Shown: positions 4,252 through 52,163 of the stretch, one piece after another | How positions within the stretch are numbered: position 1 is the first letter of the stretch | Layout of the letters: every line of letters starts with the position of its first letter | From: Acidobacteriota bacterium | GTDB taxonomy: Bacteria > Acidobacteriota > Terriglobia > Bryobacterales > Bryobacteraceae | Direction: 5' to 3' | Length of the DNA stretch: 52,373 nt | Assembly: GCA_016213775.1 (NCBI GenBank) | Contig: JACQZR010000103.1 | Coordinates: 1 to 52,373, forward strand | Translations under genes and position numbers: made by a program | Notes under the pieces: generated by a model | What the model was told of the DNA's origin: nothing | Database searches by the model: none | The model's input: only the letters and a program-made list of their open reading frames with translations

Positions 4252-4304
4252 TCGAGTCAGGCTAGCAAATGCGGCTGAGCGGAATGGAATACGATGGACA
4301 CACC

Positions 4305-5690: not shown

Positions 5691-5795
5691 CCACCTGTAG
5701 CCACCTGCAAGCGCTTCCACCCCTGGCTGCGCGGTGCTATTCTGGAGTCACGTTACGCTTCAAGGTCCTTTATGAATCGATGGGAGGAGCAAACC

Positions 5796-13613: not shown

Positions 13614-13632
13614 CACAAGCCTGGAGTCTCGT

Positions 13633-18778: not shown

Positions 18779-18790
18779 TTCATCTCTCCT

Positions 18791-19120: not shown

Positions 19121-19147
19121 AGCTCCTTTCCCTCAGTTACTGACATA

Positions 19148-19169
19148 AGCATACCTCAGCAGGGATGCT
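19148..19169 (-). promoter_or_regulatory. Candidate PadR operator
   Basis: AGCAT and ATGCT form a 5-bp inverted repeat separated by 12 bases, 28-49 bases upstream of the padR start codon. On the minus strand TATGCT next to it could serve as a -10 box. Autoregulation is usual for PadR proteins, but the match is short and unproven. Confidence 0.3.
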
Positions 19170-19219
19170 CTTTGCAAGAGGAACACAGTCTTTGACCTGT
19201 TTAGATCTCGTGCCACAAC

Positions 19220-19450
19220 CCGGAGTCTCCGGTACGCTATATCGTCGCGTACGTGCTGGATCGCATCGATGGCAATCGACGTATGATACTCGTGTATGAA
19301 ATCGGCGTTGCCGAGGATGTGATGAAAATGTGGGTACTGACCAGCCGGTCCAATATCGCAGCTACGCAGTTGTATTCGCGTACGGGTGCAGTGCCTCTGT
19401 CCGCCGCGGACGGCCCTCGCGAGAGCTTGGAGGTATCGGAAAACCCATGA
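19220..19450 (+). pseudogene. Remnant of a GNAT (AAC(3)-like) acetyltransferase
   Basis: In one frame the sequence reads ...PVRYIVAYVLDRIDGNRR then MILVYEIGVAEDV followed directly by MKMWVLTSRSNIAATQLY and SRTGA. These are the N-terminal strand block and the C-terminal block (strand 6, N-x-x-A-x-x-L-Y helix) of GNAT acetyltransferases such as AAC(3)-I-like enzymes. The middle part with the acetyl-CoA pyrophosphate loop (R/Q-x-x-G-x-G/A) is missing, and so is the normal N-terminus: a stop lies a few codons upstream. Its stop codon overlaps the start of the APH-like gene (ATGA at 19447-19450), so it was once translationally coupled to it. Confidence 0.65.
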
Positions 19451-20340
19451 CGGTTTCGGGCCAGGTGTCTGAGTGTGACGCTATTGTCCGTGAGATTCTG
19501 TCCCATCACGGAATTCAGGGAGGGTGGCAATCGCTGCCGGCGACCGGGTTAGCGAACCGCATTTATGCTACCAGCAATGTGGTGTTGCGAATCGCAACCG
19601 ACCATCCGGAGGCAGTGGAAGACGCGCGCACCGAATCGGTTGCGGCGCCAATAGCTCACGCCGCTGGCGTCCTCACGCCAAGGCTTCTGGTCTTCGATGA
19701 TTCACGAACGCTGGTGGATCGTCCGTATTCGCTTTGGGAGCGAGTGCATGGGCATACGCTCGGTCTGTTGACGGAGTCTGAGCGGATGCGGCCGCAGACC
19801 TGGAGCGATGTCGGGCGGCAGCTTTCGTTGCTTCACAGTCGAGTGGAAGAGTGTCCAGACCCGCTCGGCTGGTTGGACAAACCGGGCAGAGATCTTGATC
19901 TGGCAGAGCGTGTCGAAGAACTCGCCCTGATCGGCGCAATTGACTCCGAACAGACGAGGCAGCTCCAAAATTGGATCGCAACGCTCAGACCCGCTGTCGC
20001 GACGAAGGTCAGGGAACGGTTCATTCATAACGATGTGCACGAGATGAATTTGATGTGCAGTGAAAAGTCGGGATCGTTGATCGCTCTGCTCGACTGGGGA
20101 GATGCCGGTTGGGGCGACCCGGCGCTCGAGCTCGCTCAGATTCCTTGGCCCGTACTTCGCTTCGTTCTTGATGCATACGAGGAAGCCGCTCCGGGCTTCC
20201 TCGGCGAAGGAGCCGAGTCGCGCATTATCTGGGATCACCTCGCGTACTCAATGGAGCGGATGCCGACCGATGCCCGTGCATTCGACGACATGTATCGTTT
20301 CGTTCGAACCGCCGACGCGCGCTGGCGTATGACGGTGTAA
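19447..20340 (+). CDS. APH-type phosphotransferase (aminoglycoside/choline kinase-like)
   Basis: A 297-residue protein with the APH kinase fold. The catalytic loop H194-N-D196-V-H-E-M-N201 matches HxDxxxxN and the metal-binding Asp is D216 in LLDWGDAGWGDPALELA. The N-lobe has VVLRIA (about 45-50) where most members have Lys, i.e. Arg replaces the ATP-contacting lysine. ATG 19447 overlaps the stop of the upstream acetyltransferase remnant, so the longer open frame upstream is not used. The substrate is unknown: members phosphorylate aminoglycosides, macrolides, choline, homoserine or fructosamines. Loss of its partner may leave this kinase without its original role. Confidence 0.75.
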   Translation: MTVSGQVSECDAIVREILSHHGIQGGWQSLPATGLANRIYATSNVVLRIATDHPEAVEDARTESVAAPIAHAAGVLTPRLLVFDDSRTLVDRPYSLWERVHGHTLGLLTESERMRPQTWSDVGRQLSLLHSRVEECPDPLGWLDKPGRDLDLAERVEELALIGAIDSEQTRQLQNWIATLRPAVATKVRERFIHNDVHEMNLMCSEKSGSLIALLDWGDAGWGDPALELAQIPWPVLRFVLDAYEEAAPGFLGEGAESRIIWDHLAYSMERMPTDARAFDDMYRFVRTADARWRMTV

Positions 20341-35067: not shown

Positions 35068-38000
35068 TTAGAACACGAACTTCGCGCCCAACTGAATCAC
35101 CCGCGTCGTGATGCCTTGCACCCCTCCGCCTACGGCACCGAACGTGGCCGAACGGAGGTTGCGATCCACCGTGCCCGGATCCGGATTGTAGTGGTTCGTC
35201 ACGTTGAAGAACTCCGTCCGGAACACAATGTGGCGCTGCTCGGAGAACTTGAACATCTTGTTGACTGAGAAGTCGCCATTGATGATACCGGGCAAACGGA
35301 ACGCAGCCGTGCGAGGCGATGTCCCGTAGCGGCCGAAAGGCGCTTGACTGAACGCCCCCGTGTTGAACCACTTGGTCCACGTGCGAGCATCGCCATCGAG
35401 GTTGCCGTTGCCGTTCTGATCGGGACGCGAGTTGATGCCCGTGCCCGTGGTATCGACGTTGTTCGTCACCGGGGCGGGGAAGCCGCTCTGGAACGTCATG
35501 ATCGTCGACACCTGCCAGCCCGACAGCAGGAACCGCGTCACGCCGGTGGTGCTTCTGAAGAACGGCAGATCGTAGAGCACGGTCTGCACAAAGCGCTGCG
35601 TTACGTCGAAGCCCGATACCGATCGCTCGCCCTGCAGATAATAGATGTCCTGCGGCGCGCCGATGAAGTTGCCGCCGCCCACCTGTCCCCCGATGTCGTT
35701 CGGCCCGGAGATGGACTTGGACCACGTATATGCCGTAACGAACGTGAAGCCGCGCGCCATGCGGCGTTCGGCCTTCACTTGCAAGCCGTGATAGATGGCG
35801 TTGCCGATGCTCTTGTCGGAACGCACGTTGCGCTGGTAGGCCTGGTTAGGACGCCGCGCGTTGAGCGAGGGCAAGCCCGGTGTGCGCGGATCCACAAGTG
35901 TCACCGGACGGTTGAGATCCTCAATGGTGACGATCAGGCGAGTCGATTTCGTGCCCACGTAACCCGCATCGAGCAGGATGTTGCCCGGAAGCTTCTTCTG
36001 CAATCCGAAGTTCCACTGCTGGATGTAGGAATCGCGCAGGTTCTGGTCATTGCTGACCGCGAAGTTGAGCGCGCCCGTGGTCACCGCCGAAGAAAACGGA
36101 TCGTTGAAGAAGATGTTCGGCGAGCCTGTCAGATTGCCAATCACGGCCGCACCGGCTGTGGCCTGCGCGCCTTCGGCCATCGCGAAAATGGCATTGGAAA
36201 TCTGTGGCGTGTAATAGAAGCCGTAGCCGCCGCGCAGCACCATGTCGTTGGAGAAGCCCGGGCGGTATGCAAAGCCGACGCGCGGCGCAAAATTGTTGCG
36301 GTCAGGGGCAATCAGCGCACGGTCGTACTTCGACGTTTGCGGATTGGTGAGCCCGGCCACGATGAAGCCGTTCTGCTCGATGTTGACGAACTTGTCATCC
36401 GCCTGTTTGTACGGCTGGAAGTAGTCATACCGCAACCCGAAGTTCAGTGTCAGGCGCGGGCTGACTTTCCAGTCGTCGTTCATGTAATAGGACTGCCACC
36501 AGTTCCACAAATTCGTCGACGTGTGCGCCGGGTTGATGCTCGCGTTGCGCACGTAGCCGAGCATGAAGTCGGCCAGCGCGCTTCCAGTGTACGTGCCGTC
36601 AAACCCGAAACTGCCGCGCGGCGCGCGCGCCTGTTCAAAGGTGACGTGGCGTTTGGCGATGTCGGCGCCGAACTTGAAGAAGTGCTTGTTGCGCTGCCAG
36701 CTCAACGAATCGACGAACTGGAAAATCTCGTTGGCCCGGTCGCGCGGGCCGATCTGGCGCTGCAGGTCGTACATGGAGAAGGCGCCGTCCGGCCCGTTGA
36801 TTGTAATCGTCGGAGGACCGTACTCCTGCGGCAGGCGTGACACCAGCGGCAGACCCATCTTGCCCACGATGTCGTACGCCGGATCGTTGGTGGTGCCGAA
36901 GATCTCCACCTCGGAAAAGCGGTGCCAGCCGCCTCGGACCTCATTGATGAGCGAGGGGCCGAAGGTGTGGGTCCAGTTGGAGGCGAAGTTCTGCGCGCGT
37001 CCGAGATTGTTGCGCTCATCGTGGCCCCAGAACGGCACGCCGGCTTCATACGTGTCGTTGAAAATGTAGCGTCCGGAAACGGAGTCTTTGTCGGAAAAGA
37101 CGTGGTCAATACGGGCGTTGTAGTTGTCCTGCTTCGACACTGCGCTCGCAGGCGTGCTCGCGTAGTTGAACGTACCAACTTGCGTATTCGGTTGCGGCAT
37201 GAACTCCAAAAACACCTGCGCCTGCTTGCTGAGCCGCGAGGTGGGGATCACGTTGTTAACGATGCCGGCGTTGAGCGGATCGCGCAGCACGATGGGTGCG
37301 CCGGTGCGGGCGTTGACGAGTCCGCGAAAGTCGCCTGTGCGGACGGGCATCGAGGGGATCAGGCGGAAGGCACTCGCCGCGCCTTGCGCCAGCCGCCCGG
37401 CTTCCCAGTTGAAGAAGAAGAAAGTCTTGTCCTTACCGTTGTAAAGCTTGGGCAGCAGTACGGGACCGCCGATGTTGGCTCCGAACTGATTGCGATTGAG
37501 GCGCGGCGGCGTGACGTCCTTGCCGCCAATGGCGTCATAGGCCTGCGTGAGAGCGTTGTTTCTGTTTGAACTCCCATAACGTGCCGTTGAAACGGTTGCC
37601 GCCACGCCGCGTCAGCATGTTCACCTGACCGCCCGGAGCGCCGCCGGTTTCCGCCGATGAATTGCTCGTCTCCACTTTGAACTCGGCGAGCGAATCGACC
37701 GATGGCGAGAACGCGAACGTCATCGCGTCATAGTCCATGAACTCGATGCCGTCGATGAGGTAGCGGTTTGCCGTGTCGCGCGATCCGTTGGCGGACATGG
37801 CGGTGGAACCGAAGGGCGAATCCTGCTGCCCTATGGATCCCCGGCCGCGGCGTACGGTGATCGATCCCGGCGTCCCGGCCTGCACGCCCGGGATCAGTTG
37901 CGCGAGTTGGACGAAGTTGCGGCCGTTGAGTGGCAATTCCACAATCTTGGTGCCGTCGATGACGCCGCCGAGCGTGGCGTTATCAGACTGCAACTCCAGA

Positions 38001-38365
38001 CTGCGCGCTTCCACCGTGATGGTCTCGGATACTTCACCGACTTTGAGTTGCAGATCGAGCCGCGAGACCTGCTGGACCTGCAAGATGACCTTGTCGAACT
38101 TCTGCGTTTGGAAGCCGGACGCGGAAGCAGTGACGGTTTACTCGCCCGCGGGCAGGAACGGTAAGCTGTAACTCCCGTTGTCGCTGGTCTTTGCTTCGCG
38201 CACCGCGTTGGTGGCGTTGTTGACGGCTTTGACGTTGACACCGGGCACGGCGGCTCCAGTGGGGTCAGTGACAAAGCCGGTTAAAGTTGCTGTGGTTTGC
38301 TGGCCAAAGCCAGTAGGGGAAAGAAAAAGTGCCGCGAAAAAGGCGGTTACGACATGGTGTTTCAA
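35068..38365 (-). pseudogene. Oar-like TonB-dependent receptor, broken by nonsense and frameshift
   Basis: The three pieces together give one complete receptor of about 1098 residues: signal peptide and carboxypeptidase-regulatory domain (38365-38141, ...GSYSLPFLPAGE), a TAA at 38138-38140, then in the same frame TVTASASGFQTQKF and the plug (to about 37570, ...GGNRFNGTLWEF), then a one-base shift and the rest (NRNNALTQAYDAIGGKD ... to VIQLGAKFVF). The TAA stands where the family has Tyr (AGEY), so one base change explains it; the shift is one extra A in the run at 37565-37567. The total length, 3298 bases, is one more than a multiple of three. All other domains look intact, implying recent loss or sequence errors. 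Confidence 0.85.
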
Positions 38366-38416: not shown

Positions 38417-38836
38417 ATGCCTGACTTGCCGCCGCCCTTCCTTTATCCCTCCCGAATCCGTTTTGTCGACACCGACGCTTCGCAGCGGATCCACTATACG
38501 GCGATGTTCCGGCATTTTGAAGCAGCCGAGATGGAATGGCTTCGCGCGGGTGGATGCCCCTACTCAGATTCGCGCATGGCTGGGGTGACGTTCCCGCGTG
38601 TGCATGTGGAATGTGATTTTCAGGCGGAGTTGCGGTTCGACGATCTGGTAACGGTGGCGCTGACGGTAGAGCGCATTGGAACGTCCTCGTTCACGATGGT
38701 GTTTGCCGTTAGCAGTGGAGACAGGCAGTGCGCGCGAGGCAAGATCGTCGTCGTCTGCATCGACCGCGGGACGCAGCGGCCCTGTCCGATACCATCGGCC
38801 TTGCTGGACAGTATTCAGCGCCAACTCGCTAAGTGA
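38417..38836 (+). CDS. Acyl-CoA thioesterase, 4HBT hotdog fold
   Basis: A 139-residue hotdog-fold protein of the 4-hydroxybenzoyl-CoA thioesterase/YbgC type. The N-terminal block RIRFVDTDASQRIHYTAMFRHFEAAEMEWLR is the family signature, with the catalytic-type Asp in D-T-D-A-S and Tyr in H-Y; VECDFQAELRFDDLVTVAL and FTMVFAV follow. It hydrolyses an acyl-CoA or acyl-ACP thioester; the acyl group is unknown. Divergent from the broken receptor with a 51-base gap. ATG 38417 is the start that fits the family; the reading frame before it is not coding. Confidence 0.85.
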   Translation: MPDLPPPFLYPSRIRFVDTDASQRIHYTAMFRHFEAAEMEWLRAGGCPYSDSRMAGVTFPRVHVECDFQAELRFDDLVTVALTVERIGTSSFTMVFAVSSGDRQCARGKIVVVCIDRGTQRPCPIPSALLDSIQRQLAK

Positions 38837-38869
38837 CGACTATATCCCACTCATTCGCCCGCTGCGTTC

Positions 38870-38923
38870 CGCCGTCTTGTAGGGCGGCCAATCCTGGCCG
38901 CGGCTGGCCTTTCCAGGCCAGCC
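38870..38923 (+). repeat. Twin-hairpin REP-like element, copy 3
   Basis: Stems at 38884-38901 (7 bp, loop ATCC) and 38902-38923 (9 bp, loop TTCC), the same core as at 1288-1336 and 21728-21781, with the leader CCGCCGTCTTGTA. It lies 34 bases past the thioesterase stop and upstream of the nine-gene operon, where it could also stop or shield transcription. Confidence 0.85.
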
Positions 38924-38968
38924 TATCGTACGGGTGCGTAACCGTTTGGGGATTCTCACGGAAACCGT

Positions 38969-39027
38969 CTCCCTAACGGTCGCGGCTCGGAATCGGTCGT
39001 GTTTCTGAGCCGCGAGCGTAAAGCGAG
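38969..39027. repeat. Imperfect inverted repeat upstream of the nine-gene operon
   Basis: Arms at 38969-38988 and 39007-39027 pair through a perfect 9-bp core (TCGCGGCTC/GAGCCGCGA) with weaker outer pairing and an 18-nt loop. From memory, intergenic repeats with this GAGCCGCGA-type core are abundant in Solibacter-like and planctomycete genomes, but only this one is seen in the window. It could be a transcript end for the thioesterase gene or a regulatory hairpin before the operon. Confidence 0.4.
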
Positions 39028-39115
39028 CCGGACGCATTCCCCGAAATCGTTAAGTACCCCTATCGCACGCGCTGTGACCACATAGCGGCGGCAACATGGG
39101 ACAATACGAAATTGC

Positions 39116-40252
39116 ATGCCAGTCTACCTCGATTGCGCCGCCACCACGCCCCTGGACCCGCGCGTAATCGAGGTGTGCCTCCGCTACATGCGTGACGATT
39201 TCGGCAACGCGCACTCGCGCACGCATGACTTTGGAGCGGCCGCACGCCGCGCGGTGGAGCGGGCGCGCGATCAGGTTGCAGCGGTGGCAGGGGCCAACCG
39301 GGGCGACGTCATCTTCACCAGCGGGGCAACGGAGAGCAACAACCTGGTGCTGCTAGGACTGGAGACCGCCGCGCGCGCTACCGGCCGCAACCACATCGTC
39401 AGTACGGCGATCGAACACCAGGCGATCCTGGAACCATTGCGCGAGTTGGAACGCCGGGGCTTGGCCGTAACCCTGATCGCCCCTGGCCCCGACGGAGCCA
39501 TCGCCGCAGAGGCCGCGCGCGAGGCATTGCGGCCGGAAACACTGCTTGTATCGGTGATGCACATCAACAACGAAACTGGCGCAATCCAACCGCTGGACGC
39601 CATCTGCGACGCACTCAACGGCCACGACGCGCTGCTCCATACCGATGCCGCGCAAGGCTTCGCAAAACAGTTGAATCCTTTGCGCAATCCCCGCATCGAC
39701 TTCATCAGCGTGAGTTCTCACAAGATTTGCGGACCCAAAGGAATCGGCGCCCTGATCGCCCGCAAGCGGTCGCGCGATCGCGCCGCACTGTCCCCGCTTT
39801 TGTTCGGCGGCGGTCAGGAACGCGGTCTTCGGCCCGGCACGCTGCCCGTGCCGCAAATCGCCGGTTTCGGACTCGCCGCGCAACTGTGGGCCGGCGAATC
39901 GCAACGGCATTGGCGCAACGCGGAAAACTTCCGCGACCAACTGCTCACCGCACTCGCCCCGTTACATCCGGCCATCAACGGCGCCACGCACGCGAGTTCG
40001 CCGTTTATCCTCAACCTCTCGTTTCCCGGTTGGGACGCCGATTCTGTCATGGAAGCATGGGCGGGTATTGCCGCCGTAAGCGACGGCGCGGCCTGTTCCT
40101 CGCAATCCTACACATGCAGCCACGTGTTGGCGGCAATGCAGATCCCGCCCGATCAGGCAGCCGGTGCCATTCGCATGTCGTGGTGCCCGCTGACCCCGAT
40201 GCCCGATACCGCCGCGATGGTGGCCGCACTGCGGGAGGTCGCCGTCCGTTGA
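39116..40252 (+). CDS. Cysteine desulfurase (NifS/IscS family)
   Basis: A 378-residue PLP enzyme that removes sulfur from cysteine as an enzyme-bound persulfide. The front matches the family (VYLDCAATTPLDPRVIE). H101 (STAIEHQAI) and the PLP-binding lysine K203 in SSHKICGPKG are present. The sulfur-carrying cysteine is probably C327 in DGAACSSQ, in the short loop of class II-like or C333 of the TCSHVL segment. First gene of the nine-gene operon; the next gene starts within its stop codon. It probably supplies sulfur either for the Fe-S proteins of the operon or for a product; a housekeeping isc/suf role is less likely because no scaffold gene is adjacent. Confidence 0.9.
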   Translation: MPVYLDCAATTPLDPRVIEVCLRYMRDDFGNAHSRTHDFGAAARRAVERARDQVAAVAGANRGDVIFTSGATESNNLVLLGLETAARATGRNHIVSTAIEHQAILEPLRELERRGLAVTLIAPGPDGAIAAEAAREALRPETLLVSVMHINNETGAIQPLDAICDALNGHDALLHTDAAQGFAKQLNPLRNPRIDFISVSSHKICGPKGIGALIARKRSRDRAALSPLLFGGGQERGLRPGTLPVPQIAGFGLAAQLWAGESQRHWRNAENFRDQLLTALAPLHPAINGATHASSPFILNLSFPGWDADSVMEAWAGIAAVSDGAACSSQSYTCSHVLAAMQIPPDQAAGAIRMSWCPLTPMPDTAAMVAALREVAVR

Positions 40253-40752
40253 ATCCCGCCACGCCCTACCTGTCCTTCAAGCGCTCACGCTTCTCCATTC
40301 GCATCCCGCTCGACCGCGTTTATACGCGCGCGCACTATTGGCTGCGCGAATCGTCACCGGGCGTCTGGCGAGTCGGCTTCACCAAGTTTGCTACTCGCAT
40401 GCTGGGAGATATTGTTGAGTACCAGTTCGATGCGAACGCGGGCGACACCATCGCCGTGGGCGACAAAATCGGGTCAATTGAGGGTTTTAAGGCGCTGAGC
40501 GAGATTTATGCGGTGGCTGACGGCCTCTTTCAGGTAACGAACCCCACCCTTCGTGACGACATTACATTAATTGAAACCGACCCCTTTGAACGGGGGTGGC
40601 TCTATGAGGTCCAAGGCAAGCCGGAATCTGGTTACGTCGATGCCAATGGCTATGCCGCGATTCTGGATGCCACAATAGAGAAAATGCTGGCCAGCCGTCA
40701 TGAGCTCAGCCAGAGCGAGGATGCGGAAGAGAGTAGCGACAACGATGAGTAA
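40249..40752 (+). CDS. GcvH-like lipoyl-carrier protein
   Basis: A 167-residue protein of the glycine-cleavage H-protein family. The fold pattern is complete: TRAHYWLRE, VGFTKFATRMLGDIVEY, GDKIGSIEGFKALSEIYAVADG with the lipoyl-accepting lysine K81, and DPFERGWLYEVQG. An acidic C-terminal tail of about 40 residues is additional to usual H-proteins. The start is TTG 40249 (TTGA overlaps the upstream stop) with GGGAGG upstream. No gcvT, gcvP or lipoyl ligase is nearby, so a role in glycine cleavage is unlikely. Lipoate-binding H-like proteins (LbpA) carry sulfur in sHdr systems; with a desulfurase and an HdrA-like protein beside it, that analogy is attractive. Confidence 0.88.
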   Translation: MNPATPYLSFKRSRFSIRIPLDRVYTRAHYWLRESSPGVWRVGFTKFATRMLGDIVEYQFDANAGDTIAVGDKIGSIEGFKALSEIYAVADGLFQVTNPTLRDDITLIETDPFERGWLYEVQGKPESGYVDANGYAAILDATIEKMLASRHELSQSEDAEESSDNDE

Positions 40753-41836
40753 AGCTGTCTACCTGATGGTGGGTGGGTTCCTTGGAGCGGGAAAAACGAC
40801 CGCTATCTCCAAAATTGCCGCCATGCTCACCGCACGCGGCGTGCGCGTCGGGCTCATCACCAACGACCAGAGCGTCGGGCTGGTGGACACGGCCATACTT
40901 GCGCACGGCGATTTCCCGGTGGAGGAGATTACCGGCGGATGCTTCTGCTGCCGGTTCAACACGCTGGTGGAGGCTTCTGAGAGGCTCACCGCCAGCAGCC
41001 GTCCTGGCGTCTTCATCGCCGAGCCGGTGGGTTCGTGCACGGATCTGGTTGCTGCCGTCACCTTCCCGCTGCGCCGTATCTACGGCGAATCCTACCGCGT
41101 CGCGCCGTTGAGCGTCCTCATCGACCCAACGCGCGCCGAACGCATTCTCGGGTTGGAAAAGGGTGGCAACTTCTCGCCGAAAGTCCTCTACGTATACCGC
41201 AAGCAGTTGGAAGAAGCGGACATCATCGTCATCAACAAATGCGATCTGCTGAGCGACGAGCGTCAGGACCGGCTGGAACTGGCGTTGCGCGCTGCTTACC
41301 CCAAGTCCGACGTGATTCGTATTTCCGCACGCAGCGGCTCCGGGTTGGAGGCGTGGCTCGATCGCATCATGGGCGAGGAGGAAACCGCCGAGACCGCGCC
41401 CGATGTCGATTACGAAATCTACGCCGAGGGAGAAGCCCTACTGGGCTGGCTGAATGCTTCGGTGATCGTCGAGTCCACTGACGAGTTCGACGGCAATGAC
41501 CTGCTGCGCGGCATTGCCTCTCGCATCCAGACCGCGCTTGCATCCTATGAAGTTGCCCATTTGAAGATGACGCTCACGCCGGAAGAGAGGGGCGGGGACA
41601 TCGGCGTTCTCAACCTCGTGCGCACCGATGGCAGGCCCGAACTCGCTTATCAACTGCAGGAACCGGTGCTGGGCGGAGAACTGCTCATTAACCTTCGCGC
41701 CGAAGCCGACCCTGAGATCCTGAAGGCCGCAGTCACCAGCGCGCTTGCCGGATGCAGGTGCCGCGTGAAGGTGGATCACCTGGAACATTTCCGGCCCGGC
41801 AAGCCGCAACCCACCTACCGGATGGCACACGTATGA
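40745..41836 (+). CDS. CobW/COG0523 family GTPase
   Basis: A 363-residue P-loop GTPase of the G3E family. Walker A G11-FLGAGKT-18, the metal-binding CxCC in EITGGCFCCRFN (near residue 60), and the G-specificity NKCD (IIVINKCDLL, about 170) are intact. Family members deliver metals such as Zn, Co or Ni to client enzymes. The C-terminal CobW domain is divergent. It overlaps the H-protein gene by eight bases and the next gene by four. Its client may be another protein of this operon, for example one of the Fe-S proteins or the terpene enzymes that need Mg or other metals (inference). Confidence 0.88.
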   Translation: MSKAVYLMVGGFLGAGKTTAISKIAAMLTARGVRVGLITNDQSVGLVDTAILAHGDFPVEEITGGCFCCRFNTLVEASERLTASSRPGVFIAEPVGSCTDLVAAVTFPLRRIYGESYRVAPLSVLIDPTRAERILGLEKGGNFSPKVLYVYRKQLEEADIIVINKCDLLSDERQDRLELALRAAYPKSDVIRISARSGSGLEAWLDRIMGEEETAETAPDVDYEIYAEGEALLGWLNASVIVESTDEFDGNDLLRGIASRIQTALASYEVAHLKMTLTPEERGGDIGVLNLVRTDGRPELAYQLQEPVLGGELLINLRAEADPEILKAAVTSALAGCRCRVKVDHLEHFRPGKPQPTYRMAHV

Positions 41837-42159
41837 CGCCGCGCATCCTTTATTGCCATTGTGCGTATGCGCGGGTGCTGGCGCCGGAGGTGAAGCAGGC
41901 GGTGCTTGCGGGACTCGCCGATGCCGGCGTGGAATTTGAAGCGGTGCCCGATCTGTGCGAGATGTCGGCGCGGCGCGATGAGCGGCTGCAGGCACTGGCG
42001 GCGGAAGGTCCGGTAAAAATTGCGGCCTGTTTTCCGCGCGCGGTGAAGTGGCTGTTTCATTCGGCGGGCGCGCCTCTGCCCGAGGAAGCCGAGGTGCTCA
42101 ACATGCGGGAACAATCGGCGGAAGCCGTCTTGCACAACATCGTAGGAGTGAAAGTATGA
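41833..42159 (+). CDS. Stand-alone HdrA N-terminal-domain protein
   Basis: A 108-residue protein that matches only the N-terminal cysteine domain of HdrA-type heterodisulfide reductase subunits. Correspondences are C8-H-C10 (RILYCHC), C42 (PDLCEM, HdrA 'M/LCS'), C66 in KIAACFPRAVKWLF (HdrA 'VVAACSPR..HEPxF') and VLNMREQSAE (HdrA 'MANIREQCS'). The FAD and ferredoxin parts of HdrA are missing; the next gene encodes a ferredoxin. Four cysteines suggest Fe-S or persulfide binding. Start ATG 41833 within the upstream stop (ATGA). The assignment rests on pattern recall and deserves a profile search. Confidence 0.6.
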   Translation: MTPRILYCHCAYARVLAPEVKQAVLAGLADAGVEFEAVPDLCEMSARRDERLQALAAEGPVKIAACFPRAVKWLFHSAGAPLPEEAEVLNMREQSAEAVLHNIVGVKV

Positions 42160-42827
42160 GCGCCGTCCTTCAGGTAGTGATGCAGCCCGGAGCCAGTGCG
42201 CAGGCATTGAGCGCCCTGCTCGAAAAAGGCTACTCCGTTCGCGTCACGCAGGATGCGCCGAGGACCGCTGTGTCCGATCCCACCGAGGTTGCGCCGTCGC
42301 CCAGCAAGTGGAAACCCTGGTTTCCCGTCATCGACTATCAACGCTGCACCAACTGCATGCAATGCCTTTCGTTCTGCCTGTTCGATGTGTACGGCGTCTC
42401 GAAGGAAGGCAAGATCCAGGTACAGAATCAGACCAACTGCAAGACCGATTGTCCGGCCTGTTCGCGCGTCTGCCCCGAAGTGGCGATCCTCTTCCCCAAA
42501 TACCGTCACAACCCGATCAACGGCAGCGAAGTGCAAGCCGACGACCTTCGCCGCGAGGCAATGAAGGTGGACATTTCGGCGCTGCTCGGCGGCGATATTT
42601 ATTCGATGTTGCGCGACCGTAGCGCCAAGGCCAAATCGCGATTCTCCAAGGAACGCGACGAGGATCGTGCATTGAAAGAACGGTTGAACTGCCTCAACAA
42701 ACTTCAGCAGGCGATGGACATCCCGGGCGAAGTGTTAGCCGCGCTTCCCAGCGTGGATGAGATCCGGCGCAAAGCCGAAGTCGCGAAGGCAAAGGCAGAA
42801 GAAGCAAAAAGGCAGTTCCCTTCATGA
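42156..42827 (+). CDS. 2x[4Fe-4S] ferredoxin-like protein
   Basis: A 223-residue protein. Cluster 1: C64-x2-C67-x2-C70-x3-C74 (CTNCMQCLSFC); cluster 2: C95-x3-C99-x2-C102-x3-C106 followed by Pro (CKTDCPACSRVCP). Residues 1-50 may form a small alpha/beta domain; residues 130-223 are a charged helical region (RDRSAKAKSRFSKERDEDRAL..., KAEVAKAKAEEAKRQF) that could dock to partners. It probably feeds electrons to the radical SAM enzyme encoded next, or couples with the HdrA-like protein before it. Overlaps both neighbours by four bases (ATGA). Confidence 0.85.
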   Translation: MSAVLQVVMQPGASAQALSALLEKGYSVRVTQDAPRTAVSDPTEVAPSPSKWKPWFPVIDYQRCTNCMQCLSFCLFDVYGVSKEGKIQVQNQTNCKTDCPACSRVCPEVAILFPKYRHNPINGSEVQADDLRREAMKVDISALLGGDIYSMLRDRSAKAKSRFSKERDEDRALKERLNCLNKLQQAMDIPGEVLAALPSVDEIRRKAEVAKAKAEEAKRQFPS

Positions 42828-44011
42828 TGTACCAATTCGCCAAACGCGTCGTCACTGGCTGCGACCCCAAGGTCCTCTCCAAGTTCGTATGGAACTTCGG
42901 AGTCAAAGGGGTTCGCTCGGTGGAGATGTACAAATCGCGGCTCAAACGCGGAGAACATTTCCCACCGTTTTTGTTTGTCTCGGTCATCTCCAGTTGCAAT
43001 CTCCGCTGCCAGGGCTGTTGGGTGGACGTGGACAAGCCGTCGAAGAAGATCGAATTCGACGACATGAACCGCATCCTCAACGATGCCAAGCGGCGCGGCA
43101 ATTCCTACTTCGGCATCCTCGGTGGCGAACCGTTTCAACACCCGCAACTGCTCGACATCTTTGAAGCCCATCCCGACGCGTATTTCCAGGTCTTCACCAA
43201 CGGACAGATGATCACCGACGAAGTGGCGGCGCGCCTGCGCAAACTCGGCAACGTCTCGCCGCTCATCAGCATTGAAGGCAACGAAGTCATCAGCGATGAA
43301 CGCCGCGGAAGGCTCAACGTCTTTAATCACACGCTCGCTGGTCTCGAAGCCTGCCGCCGCAACAAGCTGCTGATCGGCGTAGCCACCAGCGTCTGCCAGA
43401 CCAACTTCGAGCTCGTCAGCGAAACGTGGCTGCGCCGCCTCATCGACCTTGGCGTCCACTACGCCTGGTTTCACACCTACCGTGTCGTTGGCCCCAAGCC
43501 CAACCCGCAACTCGCGCTCACTCCGGAACAAGTCCGCCACATTCGACGTTTCATAGTGCAGATGCGCAACAAGCTCCCCATCGCCATCGTCGATGCCTAT
43601 TGGGACGACAAAGGCGAAGCTCTCTGCCCCATGGCCACCGGCGTCAGTCATCACATCAGCCCGTACGGCGATATCGAGCCTTGCCCCATCATTCAGTTCG
43701 CCAAAGAGACGATTCATGACGGCGATCTCTTTGAAGTGATGAACAGGTCCACCTATCTGAAAGAGTTTCGCCAGACCTCCGCGAACGCTACCCGCGGTTG
43801 CGTTATGCTGGAACGACCGGACCTGGTGCGCGGCCTTGTAGAAAAGCATGGCGCCCGCGACACCACGCAGCGTCAGGAGGCCCTTGTCGAGCTGAACGCG
43901 TTGCAGCCGCGCAGTTCACAATACGATCCTGGGAACGAAATCCCGGAAGAGAATTGGATGTATCGTTTCGCCAAGAAGCGCTGGTTTTTCGGATTCGGAG
44001 CCTACACGTGA
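42824..44011 (+). CDS. Radical SAM/SPASM enzyme
   Basis: A 395-residue radical S-adenosylmethionine protein. The cluster motif C58-x3-C62-x2-C65 (SSCNLRCQGCW) is followed by the usual GGEPF motif (ILGGEPFQHPQL) and (beta/alpha) barrel. A C-terminal SPASM-like region with Cys in EALCPMATGVSHHISPYGDIEPCPII and TRGCVML near 265-325 would hold an auxiliary cluster. Not close to HpnH in feel. Between a ferredoxin and a prenyl synthase, it may modify the terpenoid product, attach sulfur or form a C-C bond, but no substrate can be named. Two ATGs adjoin at 42824 and 42827; both overlap the upstream stop. Confidence 0.85.
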   Translation: MMYQFAKRVVTGCDPKVLSKFVWNFGVKGVRSVEMYKSRLKRGEHFPPFLFVSVISSCNLRCQGCWVDVDKPSKKIEFDDMNRILNDAKRRGNSYFGILGGEPFQHPQLLDIFEAHPDAYFQVFTNGQMITDEVAARLRKLGNVSPLISIEGNEVISDERRGRLNVFNHTLAGLEACRRNKLLIGVATSVCQTNFELVSETWLRRLIDLGVHYAWFHTYRVVGPKPNPQLALTPEQVRHIRRFIVQMRNKLPIAIVDAYWDDKGEALCPMATGVSHHISPYGDIEPCPIIQFAKETIHDGDLFEVMNRSTYLKEFRQTSANATRGCVMLERPDLVRGLVEKHGARDTTQRQEALVELNALQPRSSQYDPGNEIPEENWMYRFAKKRWFFGFGAYT

Positions 44012-45714
44012 GCAGCCAACCTACAACCATCTTCCCCATGATCACGCTGCCCAAGCGGATCCCGGTGCTGCCCGAACGCGCGCCACAAACCAACATCCCG
44101 CAAACGCGTTGGGAGCGCGAAGGCATCAAGCAGCTTGCCGCGGATTTTGTCCGCAACAACAGTGCGCGTCTCACGCCGCCGTTGGTGCTGGACGAGCTCA
44201 AAACATTTTCCGATGAGCTTGTTGCACAGGCGAAGATCAATCCCGTCTATTCCAACTACGTCGCCATCATTCTGAACAACGAAATCTGGCGGGATCATCT
44301 GGCCACGGTGCCCTATGAGCGGCGGTTGCTGTTGCTGCCCAAGTGCCTGCGTGTGGAAGACCGCTGCCCCGCGCCGTTCGATGAGTTCGGCCTGCTCTGC
44401 AAACAATGCGGGCTGTGTTCGATTCAGGATCTGCAGGAAGAAGCGGAGAAACTCGGTTATGCTGTGCTGGTGGCCGAGGGCTCGGCACTGGTGATGGCGC
44501 TGATTCAAACCGGAAAGATCGACGCGATCGTCGGGGTCTCGTGCATTTCCGTGTTGGAGCGCGCGTTTCCGTACATGGAAGCAGCCGCGATCCCCGGTAT
44601 CGCGATTCCGCTGCTGCAGGATGATTGTAAGGACACCTCGGTCGACATCGAGTGGGTGTGGGACATGATCCACATGACCGCCGAAGACAAGACGCGCCGG
44701 ATGGATCTCGACGCTCTGCGCTCCGAAGTGCAGACCTGGTTCTCAGCCGCCGCTCTTGAGGAATTGATGGGCCCCTCCGACGGCAGCGAGACGGATCGCA
44801 TCTCCCGCGAGTGGCTCACGCGCGCCGGGAAACGCTGGCGTCCGTTCCTCACCGTCTGCGTGTGGAAAGCGCTTCAAGAAGACCCTGAGGCCGAAATCCC
44901 CGCGTCGCTCAAGAGGCTCGCCATCGCGGTGGAATGCTTCCACAAAGCCTCGCTTATTCACGACGATATTGAGGACGACGACGCAGAACGCTACGGGGAA
45001 GCGGCGCTCCATGTCAGCTTTGGCGTTCCTGTGGCTCTCAACTGCGGCGACCTGCTTGTGGGCGAAGGCTACCGGCTCATCGCCGAAAGCGGAGCAGAGC
45101 CGCAAGTGACGTCGCGGCTGCTGAAGATAGCCTCGGTTGGCCACCGGAATCTCTGCCTCGGCCAGGGCGCTGAACTGTGCTGGCTGCGCGATCCCAAGCC
45201 GGTGTCCGCCCTCGAAGTGATCCAGATCTTCCGTCAGAAAACAGCTCCGGCATTCGATGTAGCGCTGCAGATGGGCGCGGTGCTCGCGGGCGCTGACGAT
45301 GAGCTGCTCGCGGTGCTGGCGAAGTACAGCGATGCACTGGGCATTGCCTACCAGATTCGCGACGACCTGGAAGACATCGCGCCTGCCGACACGCGGCCCG
45401 CGCTCCCTCTCGCAATCGCCTACGAACGCGCGAAGGGCGAAACCAAGGCCGCAATCGCACGTGTCTGGCGGCGTGAGCAAACGGCCTCGCCGTTGCTGAT
45501 CGCCGAACTGGCCGAAGAGCGCTGCAAGGAACTCCTCGAATCGTATAAAGAGGAAGCCGTCCGCTCTCTCCCATCATTGGAAAATGCGAGCTTGAAGGGA
45601 CTGCTGCGCCGCGTGGTGGGCAAGATCTTCCAGGTCGAGATTCGAGGTTGGTGCAGTGAGTTTGAGGCTGGAAATGCTGCAAATCGCCAGGCTGTCACCG
45701 AAGCTGCTGGGTGA
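44008..45714 (+). CDS. DUF116-polyprenyl synthase fusion
   Basis: A 568-residue two-domain protein. Residues ~60-215 are a DUF116 domain with cysteines C113, C120, C131, C134 and C137 (LPKCLR...RCP...CKQCGLC), plausible Fe-S ligands. Residues ~260-545 are a trans-polyprenyl synthase: GKRWRP (274-279), first Asp-rich motif IHDDIEDDD (about 317-325), GDLLVGEGY, and second motif YQIRDDLEDIA. It should join IPP and an allylic diphosphate into FPP/GGPP-length chains. A GTG start at 44008 within the upstream TGA fits the overlap pattern of the operon; ATG 44038 is an alternative. Fusion of these two families is unusual and ties the redox part of the operon to terpenoid synthesis. Confidence 0.88.
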   Translation: MSSQPTTIFPMITLPKRIPVLPERAPQTNIPQTRWEREGIKQLAADFVRNNSARLTPPLVLDELKTFSDELVAQAKINPVYSNYVAIILNNEIWRDHLATVPYERRLLLLPKCLRVEDRCPAPFDEFGLLCKQCGLCSIQDLQEEAEKLGYAVLVAEGSALVMALIQTGKIDAIVGVSCISVLERAFPYMEAAAIPGIAIPLLQDDCKDTSVDIEWVWDMIHMTAEDKTRRMDLDALRSEVQTWFSAAALEELMGPSDGSETDRISREWLTRAGKRWRPFLTVCVWKALQEDPEAEIPASLKRLAIAVECFHKASLIHDDIEDDDAERYGEAALHVSFGVPVALNCGDLLVGEGYRLIAESGAEPQVTSRLLKIASVGHRNLCLGQGAELCWLRDPKPVSALEVIQIFRQKTAPAFDVALQMGAVLAGADDELLAVLAKYSDALGIAYQIRDDLEDIAPADTRPALPLAIAYERAKGETKAAIARVWRREQTASPLLIAELAEERCKELLESYKEEAVRSLPSLENASLKGLLRRVVGKIFQVEIRGWCSEFEAGNAANRQAVTEAAG

Positions 45715-46543
45715 GGCGGCGGAACTCGTAGCCAACTTCCTTCGATCCCAACAAAACCCGGACGGCGGCTTTCGCAACCGTTCCGGCGACAGTGACCTCT
45801 ACTACACCGTCTTCGGCATCGAAGGGCTCATCGCGCTCGATCAGAAGATCGCCGCCGGCCTCGTAGCCGCCTATCTCGAACCCTTCCGCAACGGCGAGCA
45901 ACTCGACCTCGTCCACCTCGGCTGCCTCATCCGTTGCTGGGCCAACATCGAACGCGGTCCGCTCCCATTGAATGCGGACACCATCGCCGCCGCGATCGAG
46001 CAGCACCACACCCGCGATGGCGGCTACAACACCGCGCTCATGGAAGAAGAAGGCACGGCGTATGGATGCTTTGTCGCGATGGCGGCGTATCAGGATCTGC
46101 GCCGCGAACTGCCCGATCCGGATGGTGTGTTGCGCTGCCTCCGCCGCATGCGCGCCGAAGATGGCGGTTACGCCAACCAGCCCGATCTGCCGTTTGGGTT
46201 GACGCCGTCATCGGCCGCGGTAGCCACGCTGTATCGACATCTTGGCGAGGAGGCGCCTGCCGAGTTGCCCGAATGGATGCTCTCGCGTTGTCATGCCGAG
46301 GGCGGATTCTATGCCACGCCGGTGGCACCCATTCCCGATCTGCTCTCCACGGCAACAGCGCTGCACGCCCTTGCTGGAATGAAGGCGTCCATCGCTGCTG
46401 TGCAGGAGCCCTGCCTCGATTTCATCGACACGCTTTGGACCAACAAAGGCGGTTTCTACGGCAACTGGACCGAAGACACGCTCGACTGCGAATACAACTA
46501 CTACGGCCTGCTCGCGCTCGGACATCTCAGCCTGCCGTCATGA
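45656..46543 (+). CDS. Prenyltransferase/squalene-oxidase-repeat protein
   Basis: A 295-residue alpha/alpha-barrel protein built from repeats with P-D-G-G-F, RDGGYN, EDGGYAN, EGGFYA and KGGFYGN signatures of the protein-prenyltransferase-beta/terpene-cyclase superfamily. No DxDD motif is present; the C-terminal TLDCEYNYYGLL resembles the D-x-C zinc-ligand area of prenyltransferase beta subunits. It may be a partner or a second cyclase-like barrel for the class II cyclase encoded next. Starts GTG 45656 or ATG 45674 both overlap the upstream gene by 40-60 bases; each has a GAGG in front. Overlaps the downstream gene by ATGA. Confidence 0.82.
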   Translation: MSLRLEMLQIARLSPKLLGEAAELVANFLRSQQNPDGGFRNRSGDSDLYYTVFGIEGLIALDQKIAAGLVAAYLEPFRNGEQLDLVHLGCLIRCWANIERGPLPLNADTIAAAIEQHHTRDGGYNTALMEEEGTAYGCFVAMAAYQDLRRELPDPDGVLRCLRRMRAEDGGYANQPDLPFGLTPSSAAVATLYRHLGEEAPAELPEWMLSRCHAEGGFYATPVAPIPDLLSTATALHALAGMKASIAAVQEPCLDFIDTLWTNKGGFYGNWTEDTLDCEYNYYGLLALGHLSLPS

Positions 46544-48234
46544 ACCGGACCCTCAATACGTTGACGGAGCGGTTGCTCGCGGAACGCAACGCGGACGGCC
46601 ACTGGGTGGGCGAGTTGTCGAGTAGCGCGCTTTCCACCGCAACGGCGTGCATCGCGCTCACGCTGGCAGGTGAGACGACTTTGCCCGCAGCGGCGCTCGC
46701 GTGGTTGGAACGCACACAGAATACCGACGGCGGTTGGGGCGACACAGTACTCAGCATCAGCAACATCTCCACAACGGCGCTGTGCTGGTCGGCGTTCGCA
46801 ATTGCAGAACGCGAAGGGACAGTGGCGTCGAAGGCGGAAGCATGGCTGCGCGCGCAGGCAGGATCGTTGGAACCGCGGCAACTCGCACAGGCGATTGCGT
46901 CGCGGTATGGGAACGATCGCACGTTCTCGGTGCCGATACTGACGGTGCTGGCGCTGGCGAGAAAAGTCCCGTGGAGCATCGTGCCGCAACTGCCCTTTGA
47001 ACTGGCCGCGTGTCCGCAGTCGTGGTTCCGGTGGCTGCAGCTTCCGGTGGTAAGCTACGCACTGCCGGCGCTCATCGCCATCGGTCACGTGCATCATCGA
47101 CTGCACCCCACGTGGAATCCGCTGGCGCTGGCGGTGCGCGGGATGACCGCCGCGGCCACACTGCGAGTGCTCGATCGCATTCAGCCACCGAATGGCGGGT
47201 TTCTCGAAGCCACGCCGCTCACGAGCTTTGTGGCCATGAGCATCAAAGCAGCGGGCTATCACGACAGTCCGGTGCTGCGGCGCTGCCTCGAGTTTCTGCA
47301 ACACTCCGTGCTGGCAGGCGGCAGTTGGCCCATCGACACCAACCTCGCTACGTGGGTGACCACGCTGTCCATCAATGCACTGCGCGGCCGGCTCCCCGCG
47401 GAGGATCGCGCCGTCATCCGGCAATGGCTTCTGAAGCAGCAATATCGCGGTACGCATCCATACACGGGTGCTCCTCCCGGTGGATGGGCGTGGACCGATC
47501 TCCCCGGCGGAGTTCCCGATGCCGACGACACGTCAGGCGCACTGCTCGCGCTCGACACACTCGGCGCGCACGATGACGTAGACGTAGCCGAACGCGGCAT
47601 CACCTGGCTGCTCGATCTGCAGAACCGCGACGGCGGCATTCCCACATTCTGCCGCGGTTGGGGCAAGCTGCCGTTTGACCGCTCGAGCCAGGACATCACT
47701 GCGCACGCGTTGCAGGCTTGGGCCGCGTGGCAGCCGCGCGTCAATCCCACGCTGCAGTCGCGCATTACCGCGGCAACGCAGCGGGCCATGAGTTACCTCG
47801 CTCTTTCACAACGCCGCGACGGAGCCTGGGTCCCCCTGTGGTTCGGCAATGAACGCGCGCACAACGACGAGAACCCGGTCTATGGAACCTCCCGCGTCCT
47901 CCTCGCACTGTCCCCGGAAAGCCCCGAAGCCCAACGAGCCACAAACTGGCTCACCGCCGCGCAGAACAAAGACGGCGGTTGGGGTGGGGACGCGAACATT
48001 GCCTCGTCGATTGAAGAAACCTCGCTCGCCGTGTCCGCCCTATCACGCTCCACACCCCACGCTGCAAAGCGCGGAATAGACCGGCTCATCGAAGCCACGC
48101 ACCACGGCACACACACACCACCTACGCCCATCGGCTTCTACTTCGCGCGTCTTTGGTACTACGAACGCCTCTACCCGCTCCTCTTTGCCACCGACGCCCT
48201 GCGGCGGTTTGCGCAATCACAAAATGCCATGTGA
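46540..48234 (+). CDS. Class II terpene cyclase, squalene-hopene-cyclase-like
   Basis: A 564-residue protein with two alpha-barrel domains. The protonating motif D327-A-D329-D330 (VPDADDT) sits after GGWAWTD as in squalene-hopene cyclases. QW-type repeats occur at NTDGGWGD (61), GGSWPI (260), NRDGGIPTFCRGWG (about 370) and KDGGWGGD (about 476). It is shorter than typical squalene-hopene cyclases (~630-720) and lacks a visible membrane-insertion segment, so the substrate may be a shorter polyprenyl or a modified one. Last gene of the operon and coupled by ATGA to the previous. It begins cyclisation by protonating an alkene or epoxide. Confidence 0.85.
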   Translation: MNRTLNTLTERLLAERNADGHWVGELSSSALSTATACIALTLAGETTLPAAALAWLERTQNTDGGWGDTVLSISNISTTALCWSAFAIAEREGTVASKAEAWLRAQAGSLEPRQLAQAIASRYGNDRTFSVPILTVLALARKVPWSIVPQLPFELAACPQSWFRWLQLPVVSYALPALIAIGHVHHRLHPTWNPLALAVRGMTAAATLRVLDRIQPPNGGFLEATPLTSFVAMSIKAAGYHDSPVLRRCLEFLQHSVLAGGSWPIDTNLATWVTTLSINALRGRLPAEDRAVIRQWLLKQQYRGTHPYTGAPPGGWAWTDLPGGVPDADDTSGALLALDTLGAHDDVDVAERGITWLLDLQNRDGGIPTFCRGWGKLPFDRSSQDITAHALQAWAAWQPRVNPTLQSRITAATQRAMSYLALSQRRDGAWVPLWFGNERAHNDENPVYGTSRVLLALSPESPEAQRATNWLTAAQNKDGGWGGDANIASSIEETSLAVSALSRSTPHAAKRGIDRLIEATHHGTHTPPTPIGFYFARLWYYERLYPLLFATDALRRFAQSQNAM

Positions 48235-48250
48235 AGCCACGTCCGATCCC

Positions 48251-49561
48251 TTACCCCCGGATTTCCAGCCCCCGCATTGTCCCTGTCGCCGTCGAGAATT
48301 TGTCCGTCTCAATCCCCAGCCGCTGCAGCACGTTCACAAACAAATTCGGCAGCGGATAATTCCGCTCCAGGTTGAACGCGAGGTGCTGCCCGTGGTTAAA
48401 CCCGCCGCCGGCGAACAGCACGGGGAGGTTGGTCGTCACATGTGTATTCGCGTTCCCCATGTTGCTGCCATACACAATCATCGTCCGGTCTAGCAGCGTC
48501 TGCCCGCCTTCTTTCCGTTGCTTCAAATCGGCAAACAGTTTCGCCAGCAGTTTCATGTGACCGCGATCAATCATCTCCAACTGCCGCAGCTTTGCCGGAT
48601 TCTTCCCGTGATGCGAGAGGTTGTGATAGCCATCGTTGGTGGGCTGATCATCCACTGTGATGGCCGGTGAATTCACACTATCCAACAGCAGCGCCACAGA
48701 CCGCGTGGAATCGGTTTCAAACGCCAGACGCGTGATGTCGTACATCAACCGGACTTTCTCCATGTACGCCCGAGGATCCGTGGGGTCCACTGGCGCAGCT
48801 TCCTTCACCACCGGCTTAGGCTTCTGTTCCCACTGGGCCGCCGAAGCTAGCCGGCCTTCCAGATCGCGCACGCCGGTCAAATACTGATCGAGCCGTTCGC
48901 GGTCCGCCGCGCCGACATTGCGTTGCAGACTCTTCGTCTGACCCGCGACCGTATCGAGGATGCTCTGCCCAAGCGACAGCCGCCGCATCTGCGCCTGGAT
49001 CTCCTCGGGAGAGCCGGTGAGGAACAGCCGCTTGAACACCTCCGAGACTCTTTCCTCGCCGGGAATCAACACGCCGCCACGCGTCCACGAAAGACTGCGC
49101 TGGCCCTGCTGCACATTCACACCCAGCGTCAGCGAAGAGAACCGCGTCCGGTTGCCGATGCGCTCGCCGATGAGTTGATCGAGCGAAATAGTATTCCGGA
49201 ACCCGCCGCTGCCGGGATGCGGCGCTGCCGTCAGGAAGCAGTTGTCCGCCGGATGTCCGCCATCCACATCCGGATGCCACACGCCGGAGAATACCGTGAA
49301 GTCGTTGCGATGCTCGCTCAGGTGCTCCAGATAAGGGGACGGCCGGTATTCGCGTCCCGTCGAATCGGCCGCCGGGAAGAACAACTCCGGCAACAGTCCG
49401 AGGTTGTTGCAGATGCCGAAAAACCGCCGCGGCACCGGTGCGCTTGCCGCATGCGAAAGGGCCGGCGTCATCGCATCCAAAACCGGGAGGGCAACGGCCA
49501 CTCCAGCGCCGCGCAGAAAGTGACGGCGCGAAAGCGAACGGGGAACGAGTACGTTGGACAT
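48251..49561 (-). CDS. DUF1552 family Tat-exported protein
   Basis: A 436-residue secreted protein with a Tat leader ([22 protein letters not shown]). The rest fits the DUF1552 family: [59 protein letters not shown], and a C-terminal part with [26 protein letters not shown] and FNHGQHLAF, reminiscent of the alkaline-phosphatase-like DUF1501 group. In Acidobacteria and Planctomycetes it is almost always paired with the multi-domain cytochrome encoded upstream. Function unknown, probably periplasmic oxidation or complex-carbohydrate use. Confidence 0.88.
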
Positions 49562-49610
49562 GTGTGAGCTTGTCTCCAGAACTTGCCGCTATTATTTCAC
49601 GCTTCGTTAA

Positions 49611-52145: not shown

Positions 52146-52163
52146 TGACAAGAAGGCTATCAC

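Follow-up and report, generated by a model that had tools for sequence, protein, structure and literature searches.

A conserved nine-gene operon with a DUF116-polyprenyl diphosphate synthase fusion, a probable pathway to a polycyclic terpenoid in Acidobacteriota, Planctomycetota and Verrucomicrobiota

The stretch of DNA analyzed here (the window; 52,373 nt, positions 1 to 52,373 of contig JACQZR010000103.1, assembly GCA_016213775.1) belongs to an Acidobacteriota bacterium of the family Bryobacteraceae and carries a run of nine plus-strand genes at positions 39116-48234, designated A to I. According to our analysis of their sequences, these genes probably form one biosynthetic unit for a polycyclic terpenoid, made by a route that bypasses squalene. 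A preliminary description of the locus had reported nine tightly packed genes, and this was borne out: all eight junctions overlap, by 4, 8, 4, 4, 4, 4, 59, and 4 bases in order from A/B to H/I, and the genes translate without internal stops. Three of them start on codons other than ATG (B on TTG, G and H on GTG), and the start of C is the ATG at 40745; the 59-base overlap between G and H rests on the GTG start of H, and an in-frame ATG lies 18 bases further on. Because of this packing, we infer that A-I are carried on a single transcript. A sigma-70-like scan of positions 38700-48400 called 2 sites against a shuffle mean of 2.0, with none in the 279 bases 5' of A, and the promoter and terminator scan of the locus gave no more sites than were found in shuffles.

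Gene A (39116..40252, 378 aa) encodes a class V aminotransferase of the type of the cysteine desulfurases IscS, NifS, and DndA (Pfam Aminotran_5, 6.7e-68). Its best NCBIfam model, DndA, gives 453.7 bits, below the cut-off of 480, and Cys327 is invariant in 29/29 rows. Such counts, here and below, refer to the rows of aligned relatives of each gene (A 29, B 42, C 46, D 53, E 54, F 64, G 86, H 58, and I 35); rows were chosen for the alignments (6 each for alignments A1 and A2, 45 of the 53 D rows for A3, 32 of 35 for A4, 32 of 58 for A5, and 43 of 86 for A6). The product of gene B (40249..40752, 167 aa) is a lipoyl carrier (Pfam GCV_H, 3.8e-21) with a candidate lipoyl lysine, K81, kept in all 42 rows and in 5/5 divergent planctomycete copies. 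Since its scores lie under the NCBIfam gcvH cut-offs (73.9 of 115.85 and 80.9 of 117 bits) even though the lysine is kept, its identification as a housekeeping H protein of glycine cleavage was rejected, and it is referred to as GcvH-like. Gene C (40745..41836) encodes a GTPase of the CobW/COG0523 family with 363 aa and a GGCFCC motif (Pfam cobW, 2.3e-23), in which C66, C68, C69, and C98 are kept in 46/46 rows.

Gene D (41833..42159) encodes a small protein of 108 aa that stands outside the named families and is predicted to have a flavodoxin-like alpha/beta fold. Four cysteines (C8, C10, C42, and C66) are present in 53/53 rows. Pfam and NCBIfam gave no match for the window copy; among 45 of its relatives, no Pfam family was touched by more than 3, HdrA not being among those families, and the NCBIfam HdrA model was touched weakly (E = 0.024) by a single one. 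The structure model of D is confident (pLDDT, the predicted local distance difference test, 91.1). A Foldseek search with this model found no match at E<=0.001, the best rows being Rossmann- and flavodoxin-like and non-significant, and HdrA was absent from the best 50 of 889 rows, none of which was significant; a profile search of the PDB was uninformative, with designed repeat proteins as its best rows. The likeness of D to the HdrA N-terminal domain is presumably one of cysteine pattern.

Gene E (42156..42827, 223 aa) encodes a 2x[4Fe-4S] ferredoxin, for which Fer4_2 matches just above its cut-off (2.1e-05) and Fer4_10 below it (2.6e-05). The eight cluster cysteines and C179 are kept in 54/54 rows. 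A comparison with 10 relatives showed that these bear an extra N-terminal domain, which is shortened in the window copy. HdrA models are touched by E through its ferredoxin part alone (28.3 of 1400 bits).

The product of gene F (42824..44011, 395 aa) is a member of the radical SAM superfamily, with both the CxxxCxxC motif and the Pfam domain present (Radical_SAM 3.9e-14, 53.6 bits against a cut-off of 29.5). The three cysteines of the motif (C58, C62, and C65), C191, and the SPASM-like C268, C287, and C326 were found in 64/64 rows; yet, in spite of these invariant SPASM-like cysteines, no SPASM match was listed in Pfam and no NCBIfam match was shown at cut-off.

Gene G (44008..45714) joins a DUF116 domain (3.2e-35; residues 77-221, 121.3 bits against a cut-off of 25) to a polyprenyl diphosphate synthase (polyprenyl_synt, 1.2e-38). 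The seven cysteines of the DUF116 part are kept in 85-86 of 86 rows. In the synthase part there are two aspartate-rich motifs, D319-D320-x-x-D323 and D452-D453-x-x-D456, each conserved in at least 95% of the 86 rows, by which this half is classed as a trans-polyprenyl diphosphate synthase. Small residues (A314-S315) precede the first DDxxD, as is typical of synthases making products longer than C15. A Foldseek search with the model of the DUF116 domain (pLDDT 73.9, poor around the cysteines) gave nothing significant. DUF116 (arCOG02078) has been predicted to be a metal-binding, flavodoxin-like, electron-transfer protein (Makarova et al., 2015, PMC5898192).

The product of gene H (45656..46543, 295 aa) is an alpha-alpha toroid protein of the prenyltransferase fold (Pfam Prenyltrans, 1.1e-12), with a PDB profile match to the beta subunit of RabGGTase (9.6e-11). 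In the beta subunits of protein prenyltransferases, the catalytic zinc ligands are an aspartate, a cysteine, and a histidine. The cysteines of H are variable (C90 in 49, C253 in 48, C94 in 44, C278 in 33, C138 in 28, C161 in 26, and C212 in 21 of 58 rows), and because none of them is invariant, H has no such zinc site and was rejected as a protein prenyltransferase. I (46540..48234, 564 aa) is a terpene cyclase of the squalene-hopene cyclase (SHC) type, with both SQHop_cyclase_C (7.9e-32) and SQHop_cyclase_N above the Pfam cut-offs. A DxDD motif lies at 327-330 (D327, D329, and D330 in 35/35 rows), and by its domains and this motif I is classed as a class II cyclase of the squalene/oxidosqualene-cyclase superfamily.

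Thus, Pfam and NCBIfam back the earlier family labels in outline for eight of the nine genes, while the label "HdrA N-terminal domain" for D found no support. None of the listed NCBIfam matches of A-I reaches its cut-off (the best 25 of 26 were considered for E and the best 25 of 48 for F), so that none of these proteins counts as a standard member of an established pathway.

In order to follow the operon among other bacteria, 84,980 species genomes were scanned for relatives of G, of which 404 were found and the best 80 kept. Together with 5 from a sample of the window's own phylum they gave 85 loci. Having been selected as the best matches, the 80 lean towards the window's own kind. By title they come for the most part from Acidobacteriota, Planctomycetota, and Verrucomicrobiota, while one is labeled Bacteroidales and two bear the bare name "bacterium"; the titles of metagenome-assembled genomes (such as "Akkermansia muciniphila" and "Bacteroidales") are the submitters' own, and some are probably wrong. 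Within the own phylum, the close form of DUF116 (56-70% identity) was present in 5 of the 296 other genomes sampled, and a distant DUF116 alone in 27 more; the two further members of the window's family in this sample had no DUF116.

The gene order proved to be conserved. B-I follow the order of the window in 30/85 loci, with the starts of B and I 6.4-8.3 kb apart, and A-I in 17/85, many of the others being cut by contig ends. Among the 35 loci with long enough flanks on both sides, the figures are 19 and 14, respectively. Counted over the 53 loci with sufficient upstream sequence, B was in place and on the same strand in 38, C in 39, D in 42, E in 42, F in 47, and A in 18; downstream, H was in place in 38 and I in 26 of the 47 loci with sufficient sequence on that side. 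A lies downstream of the cyclase in some loci and was undetected on the locus in 26/53. The next commonest groups of open reading frames (ORFs) each occur in at most 12/85 loci, so that the boundaries first drawn for the operon coincide with those of the conserved unit. Five of these groups were inspected: the largest consists, by position, of shadow ORFs of A, and the rest are ABC-transporter or clade-specific genes. A transporter-like gene, by eye of the major facilitator superfamily type, was also seen 3' of G in six verrucomicrobial loci (L058, L059, L072, L075, L088, and L094).

In a tree of the 85 G proteins (made by a quick method, with L092 left out), Verrucomicrobiota fall on one side of a branch with a support of 99, and the window groups with three acidobacterial loci (support 100). 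The four labeled groups need five changes, the minimum being three, and the tree mostly follows the phyla; as a sequence-based picture, it fits old inheritance with few transfers. Since eight to nine genes are found together across three phyla and the tree goes mostly by phylum, the pathway is probably old and its product useful to its hosts.

Whether or not they adjoin, the genes tend to occur in the same genomes. We searched whole-genome samples for D, F, G, and SQS_PSY in Planctomycetota and for D and G in Verrucomicrobiota (thresholds: G at E<=1e-40, D at E<=1e-6, and F at E<=1e-100; a first pass scored limited candidates per genome, and relatedness was uncorrected). Of 199 Planctomycetota, 47 carried G, 28 D, and 41 F, and all the genomes with D or F were genomes with G; moreover, the set of 28 with D coincides exactly with the 28 genomes in which G matched more strongly. 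The 194 Verrucomicrobiota included 31 with G and 21 with D, all 21 inside the 31. Consequently, D, the one gene of the B-E group searched for there, was found in 0/315 genomes without G in the two samples. Two planctomycete genomes without G have weak F matches near 1e-61. The co-occurrence of the G fusion with the other genes, proposed earlier as a check and run for D and F, thus came out in favor of the operon, all matches at threshold lying in genomes with G.

Adjacency is not required for this association: ten of the 11 genomes whose G locus has no adjoining D carry it at another site, and hundreds of kilobases of one contig can separate F from G in some planctomycetes (G467 and G496). As the co-occurrence persists when the genes are unlinked, selection seems to keep them in one cell, beyond adjacency. 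Conserved order and co-occurrence together led us to reject a chance neighborhood. They also lend strong support to the previous suggestion of one pathway, as the order recurs in three phyla and the co-occurrence extends to unlinked genes. The concern that the genes might be scattered in relatives applies in part, since in some verrucomicrobial loci B-E do not adjoin G and neighborhoods of the Chthoniobacteraceae type have F or H near G, without B-E; D was nonetheless present in 10 of the 11 genomes mentioned. A further possibility raised at the outset, that the first genes belong to a known iron-sulfur (Fe-S) or sHdr locus joined here by chance, was not borne out and is rejected by the absence of D from the 315 genomes without G.

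The same observations bear on a reading in which B-E serve the maturation of some enzyme of general metabolism that depends on lipoyl or Fe-S groups, the prenyl genes F-I being no more than an adjoining side branch. It would account for the Chthoniobacteraceae-type neighborhoods, and a GcvH-homologous lipoyl protein serving a pathway other than glycine cleavage is indeed known, namely LbpA of sHdr sulfur oxidation (PMC10332631). However, the restriction of D to genomes with G in the two samples, its retention in the genome when it does not adjoin G, and the occurrence of B and E near I and G in 5/8 divergent neighborhoods (see below) speak against it, and we regard it as very unlikely.

A distinct form of the system was revealed in Planctomycetota, where 19 of the G genes are only distantly related and occur in genomes in which the profile search found no D. 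Eight divergent neighborhoods were mapped, two of which (L138 and L143) were examined ORF by ORF. In four of the eight (L138, L140, L144, and L145), B, E, I, and G share a strand and succeed one another; L139 has B and E about 5 kb away from I, G, and H, which occupy the opposite strand. No B or E was found near G in L141, L142, and L143, and a divergent F stands beside I in L141 and L143. All eight copies keep the seven DUF116 cysteines, the DDxxD, and the DxDD of the cyclase, the second synthase motif being NDxxD. Where B and E lie nearby, B retains its lipoyl lysine and E its eight cluster cysteines in 5/5 loci. F is present in all 8 genomes, while A and C were undetected in all eight neighborhoods. 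The core of the divergent form consists, then, of G and I (8/8), F in the genome, and often B and E nearby; A and C are the most dispensable. In L138, the ferredoxin E (5546-6685) has an N-terminal stretch resembling D, minus its cysteines, and this D-like domain suggests that D and E may work as one complex.

The relation of the operon to hopanoids and squalene deserves separate consideration, because the own genome also contains a canonical hopanoid locus on contig C175 (about 12641-20312; L117 and L146) with SHC (623.1 bits), HpnH (408.9 bits), HpnC (349.7 bits), and a second SQS_PSY gene. Among the solved structures, SHC is nearest to I (PDB profile match 1gsz, 8.2e-37), and F matches the HpnH model weakly (31.4 bits), so that F-I could be imagined as an SHC-dependent hopanoid variant in which I cyclises squalene and F attaches adenosine as HpnH does. 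A further point in its favor is that SQS_PSY is somewhat commoner in planctomycete carriers of G (35/47) than in non-carriers (85/152; Fisher p 0.027, relatedness ignored), an excess that speaks against full independence from squalene. On the other side, F is far under the HpnH cut-off of 225.05 bits and I under that of the NCBIfam hopene_cyclase model (97.6 of 431.1 bits); these scores, together with the separate hopanoid locus, led us to reject the identification as a hopanoid operon. In addition, the operon has a prenyl synthase of its own as part of a fusion, and none of its nine proteins matches SQS_PSY in Pfam. SQS_PSY at E<=1e-10 was undetected in 12/47 planctomycete carriers, a set that may include incomplete genomes, and in 4 of 13 individually searched carriers, all four acidobacterial (completeness 99, 96, 91, and 80%). 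We therefore give the hopanoid variant little credence. In the carriers without SQS_PSY, I seems to be independent of squalene made in this way, and the likeliest source of its substrate would be the prenyl synthase of the same operon.

Based on these results, the following pathway may be proposed for the unit A-I. First, the synthase half of G would make an all-trans polyprenyl diphosphate, as its motifs suggest. Second, the DUF116 half, acting as a tethered Fe-S protein, and F would together bring about a reductive or radical modification of the chain, with the lipoyl protein B, the four-cysteine protein D, and the ferredoxin E as a dedicated redox module for this step. Third, I would cyclise the chain by protonation, as its fold and DxDD motif imply, with the toroid protein H as a possible partner. 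A and C may build or load the Fe-S or metal centers of the redox module and would be replaceable from elsewhere. In this scheme the cyclised polyprenoid of the preliminary description is retained as a predicted product, since the synthase and cyclase motifs agree with it.

The same description had also considered a sulfurated product. A sulfurated terpenoid would require that A feed sulfur via B and D and that F insert it into the chain or the cyclised product in the manner of LipA or BioB. The operon does bring together a cysteine desulfurase, a four-cysteine protein, and a lipoyl carrier whose lysine is invariant; 17 of the 30 loci that keep B-I in order have A at their head, and the Pfam Se/S-carrier model is weakly touched by 3 of the 45 D proteins (best E = 0.014), which would fit sulfur handling. 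Nevertheless, A is the least conserved gene, being absent from its upstream place in most of the 53 loci and undetected in the divergent neighborhoods, and for this reason sulfuration is not favored; a housekeeping desulfurase may exist in all these genomes, so that absence nearby does not equal absence. The lack of D's cysteines in the D-like domain of L138 also argues against this route, which we consider unlikely. That A and C are dispensable speaks rather for B, D, and E as a module with a redox role, and the data agree better with the alternative offered earlier, in which the radical SAM/DUF116 step has its own supply of sulfur and electrons.

Several points weigh against the proposed one-unit pathway. 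In addition to the SQS_PSY excess and the Se/S-carrier matches, F was unmatched at E<=1e-60 in 6/47 planctomycete genomes with G, 5 of which have D, and D was unmatched in 19/47 planctomycete and 10/31 verrucomicrobial genomes with G. Within the neighborhoods searched, H is not near G in 9/47 loci and I in 21/47, counts that leave distant copies out of account. Dihydrolipoyl is too weak a reductant for direct ferredoxin reduction, and B may thus carry something else. Furthermore, because the fold searches with D and DUF116 were non-significant, the redox role rests on cysteines, neighbors, and the 2015 prediction.

A more specific version of the proposed pathway would be a third way, independent of squalene synthase, of making terpenoid chains that form rings, in which DUF116, driven by the lipoyl/ferredoxin module and F, reductively removes the allylic diphosphate or couples two chains, in a chemistry like that of IspH but on a whole chain; the resulting hydrocarbon would then be closed by I. 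Such loss of diphosphate or coupling would explain why an Fe-S domain is fused to a synthase and why an SHC-type cyclase occurs without squalene synthase. We put it forward as a tentative and rather doubtful idea; if true, it would mean a class of polycyclic lipids new to these three phyla.

Regarding the surroundings of the operon, a thioesterase-like gene (4HBT_2) lies 5' of A, followed by the 279-base gap, and a convergent DUF1552 gene lies 16 bases 3' of I. The latter belongs to a minus-strand pair at 48251-52163, which consists of DUF1552 (HXXSHH) and a DUF1592/1588/1585/1587/1595 protein; this gene pair is common in planctomycetes. Elsewhere in the window, a sulfatase gene is next to one for a large beta-barrel protein of the outer membrane that contains a carboxypeptidase regulatory-like domain (4269-9344). 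By eye, another outer membrane protein of the carboxypeptidase regulatory-like/beta-barrel type is encoded on the minus strand at 35068-38083, in two frames (35068-37605 and 37535-38083), perhaps due to a frameshift or an assembly error.

Overall, the operon places DUF116, a Pfam domain of unknown function, in a definite chemical context. From it, a lipid of the cyclic terpenoid kind can also be predicted for cultured bacteria, among them Chthoniobacter flavus, in which G, H, and I are located together (L077) and D elsewhere in the genome. If preserved in sediments, such a lipid could be mistaken for hopanoid biomarkers or add to them.

Among the known systems, the sesquarterpene/sporulene-type and class II diterpene pathways come close in their terpenoid part: a polyprenyl chain made by a dedicated synthase is closed by an SHC-related DxDD cyclase, and the operon pairs the same two kinds of enzyme. 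Those systems are not known to include radical SAM, DUF116, or lipoyl genes. The hopanoid pathway (HpnC/D/E, SHC, and HpnH) likewise combines an SHC-fold DxDD cyclase with a radical SAM enzyme in bacterial lipid synthesis; in contrast to it, the operon has a DUF116-fused prenyl synthase instead of SQS_PSY and adds genes for lipoyl, ferredoxin, D, CobW, and NifS proteins. A verrucomicrobial cluster with a squalene-hopene cyclase is named, and read as hopanoid, in PMC8692599, the relevant passages of which list no genes by which it could be equated with this operon or told apart from it.

The fusion itself was noted in 2015, in one sentence on Psta_0175 of Pirellula staleyi, a protein with the same domain pair as G (Makarova et al., 2015, PMC5898192); section 3.6 of that paper gives no operon, radical SAM partner, or cyclase beside it. 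Hence, the initial statement that no such operon had been described holds for the operon, of which no description was found in the literature searched (where few subscription papers were reached), but not for the fusion. Finally, B resembles the LbpA protein of the sHdr system in being a GcvH-like lipoyl protein in a dedicated pathway (PMC10332631). Unlike the sHdr system, the operon has no HdrB or HdrC among the matches listed and no full-length HdrA, its D protein comprises 108 aa, and its genes travel with those for terpenoid synthesis.

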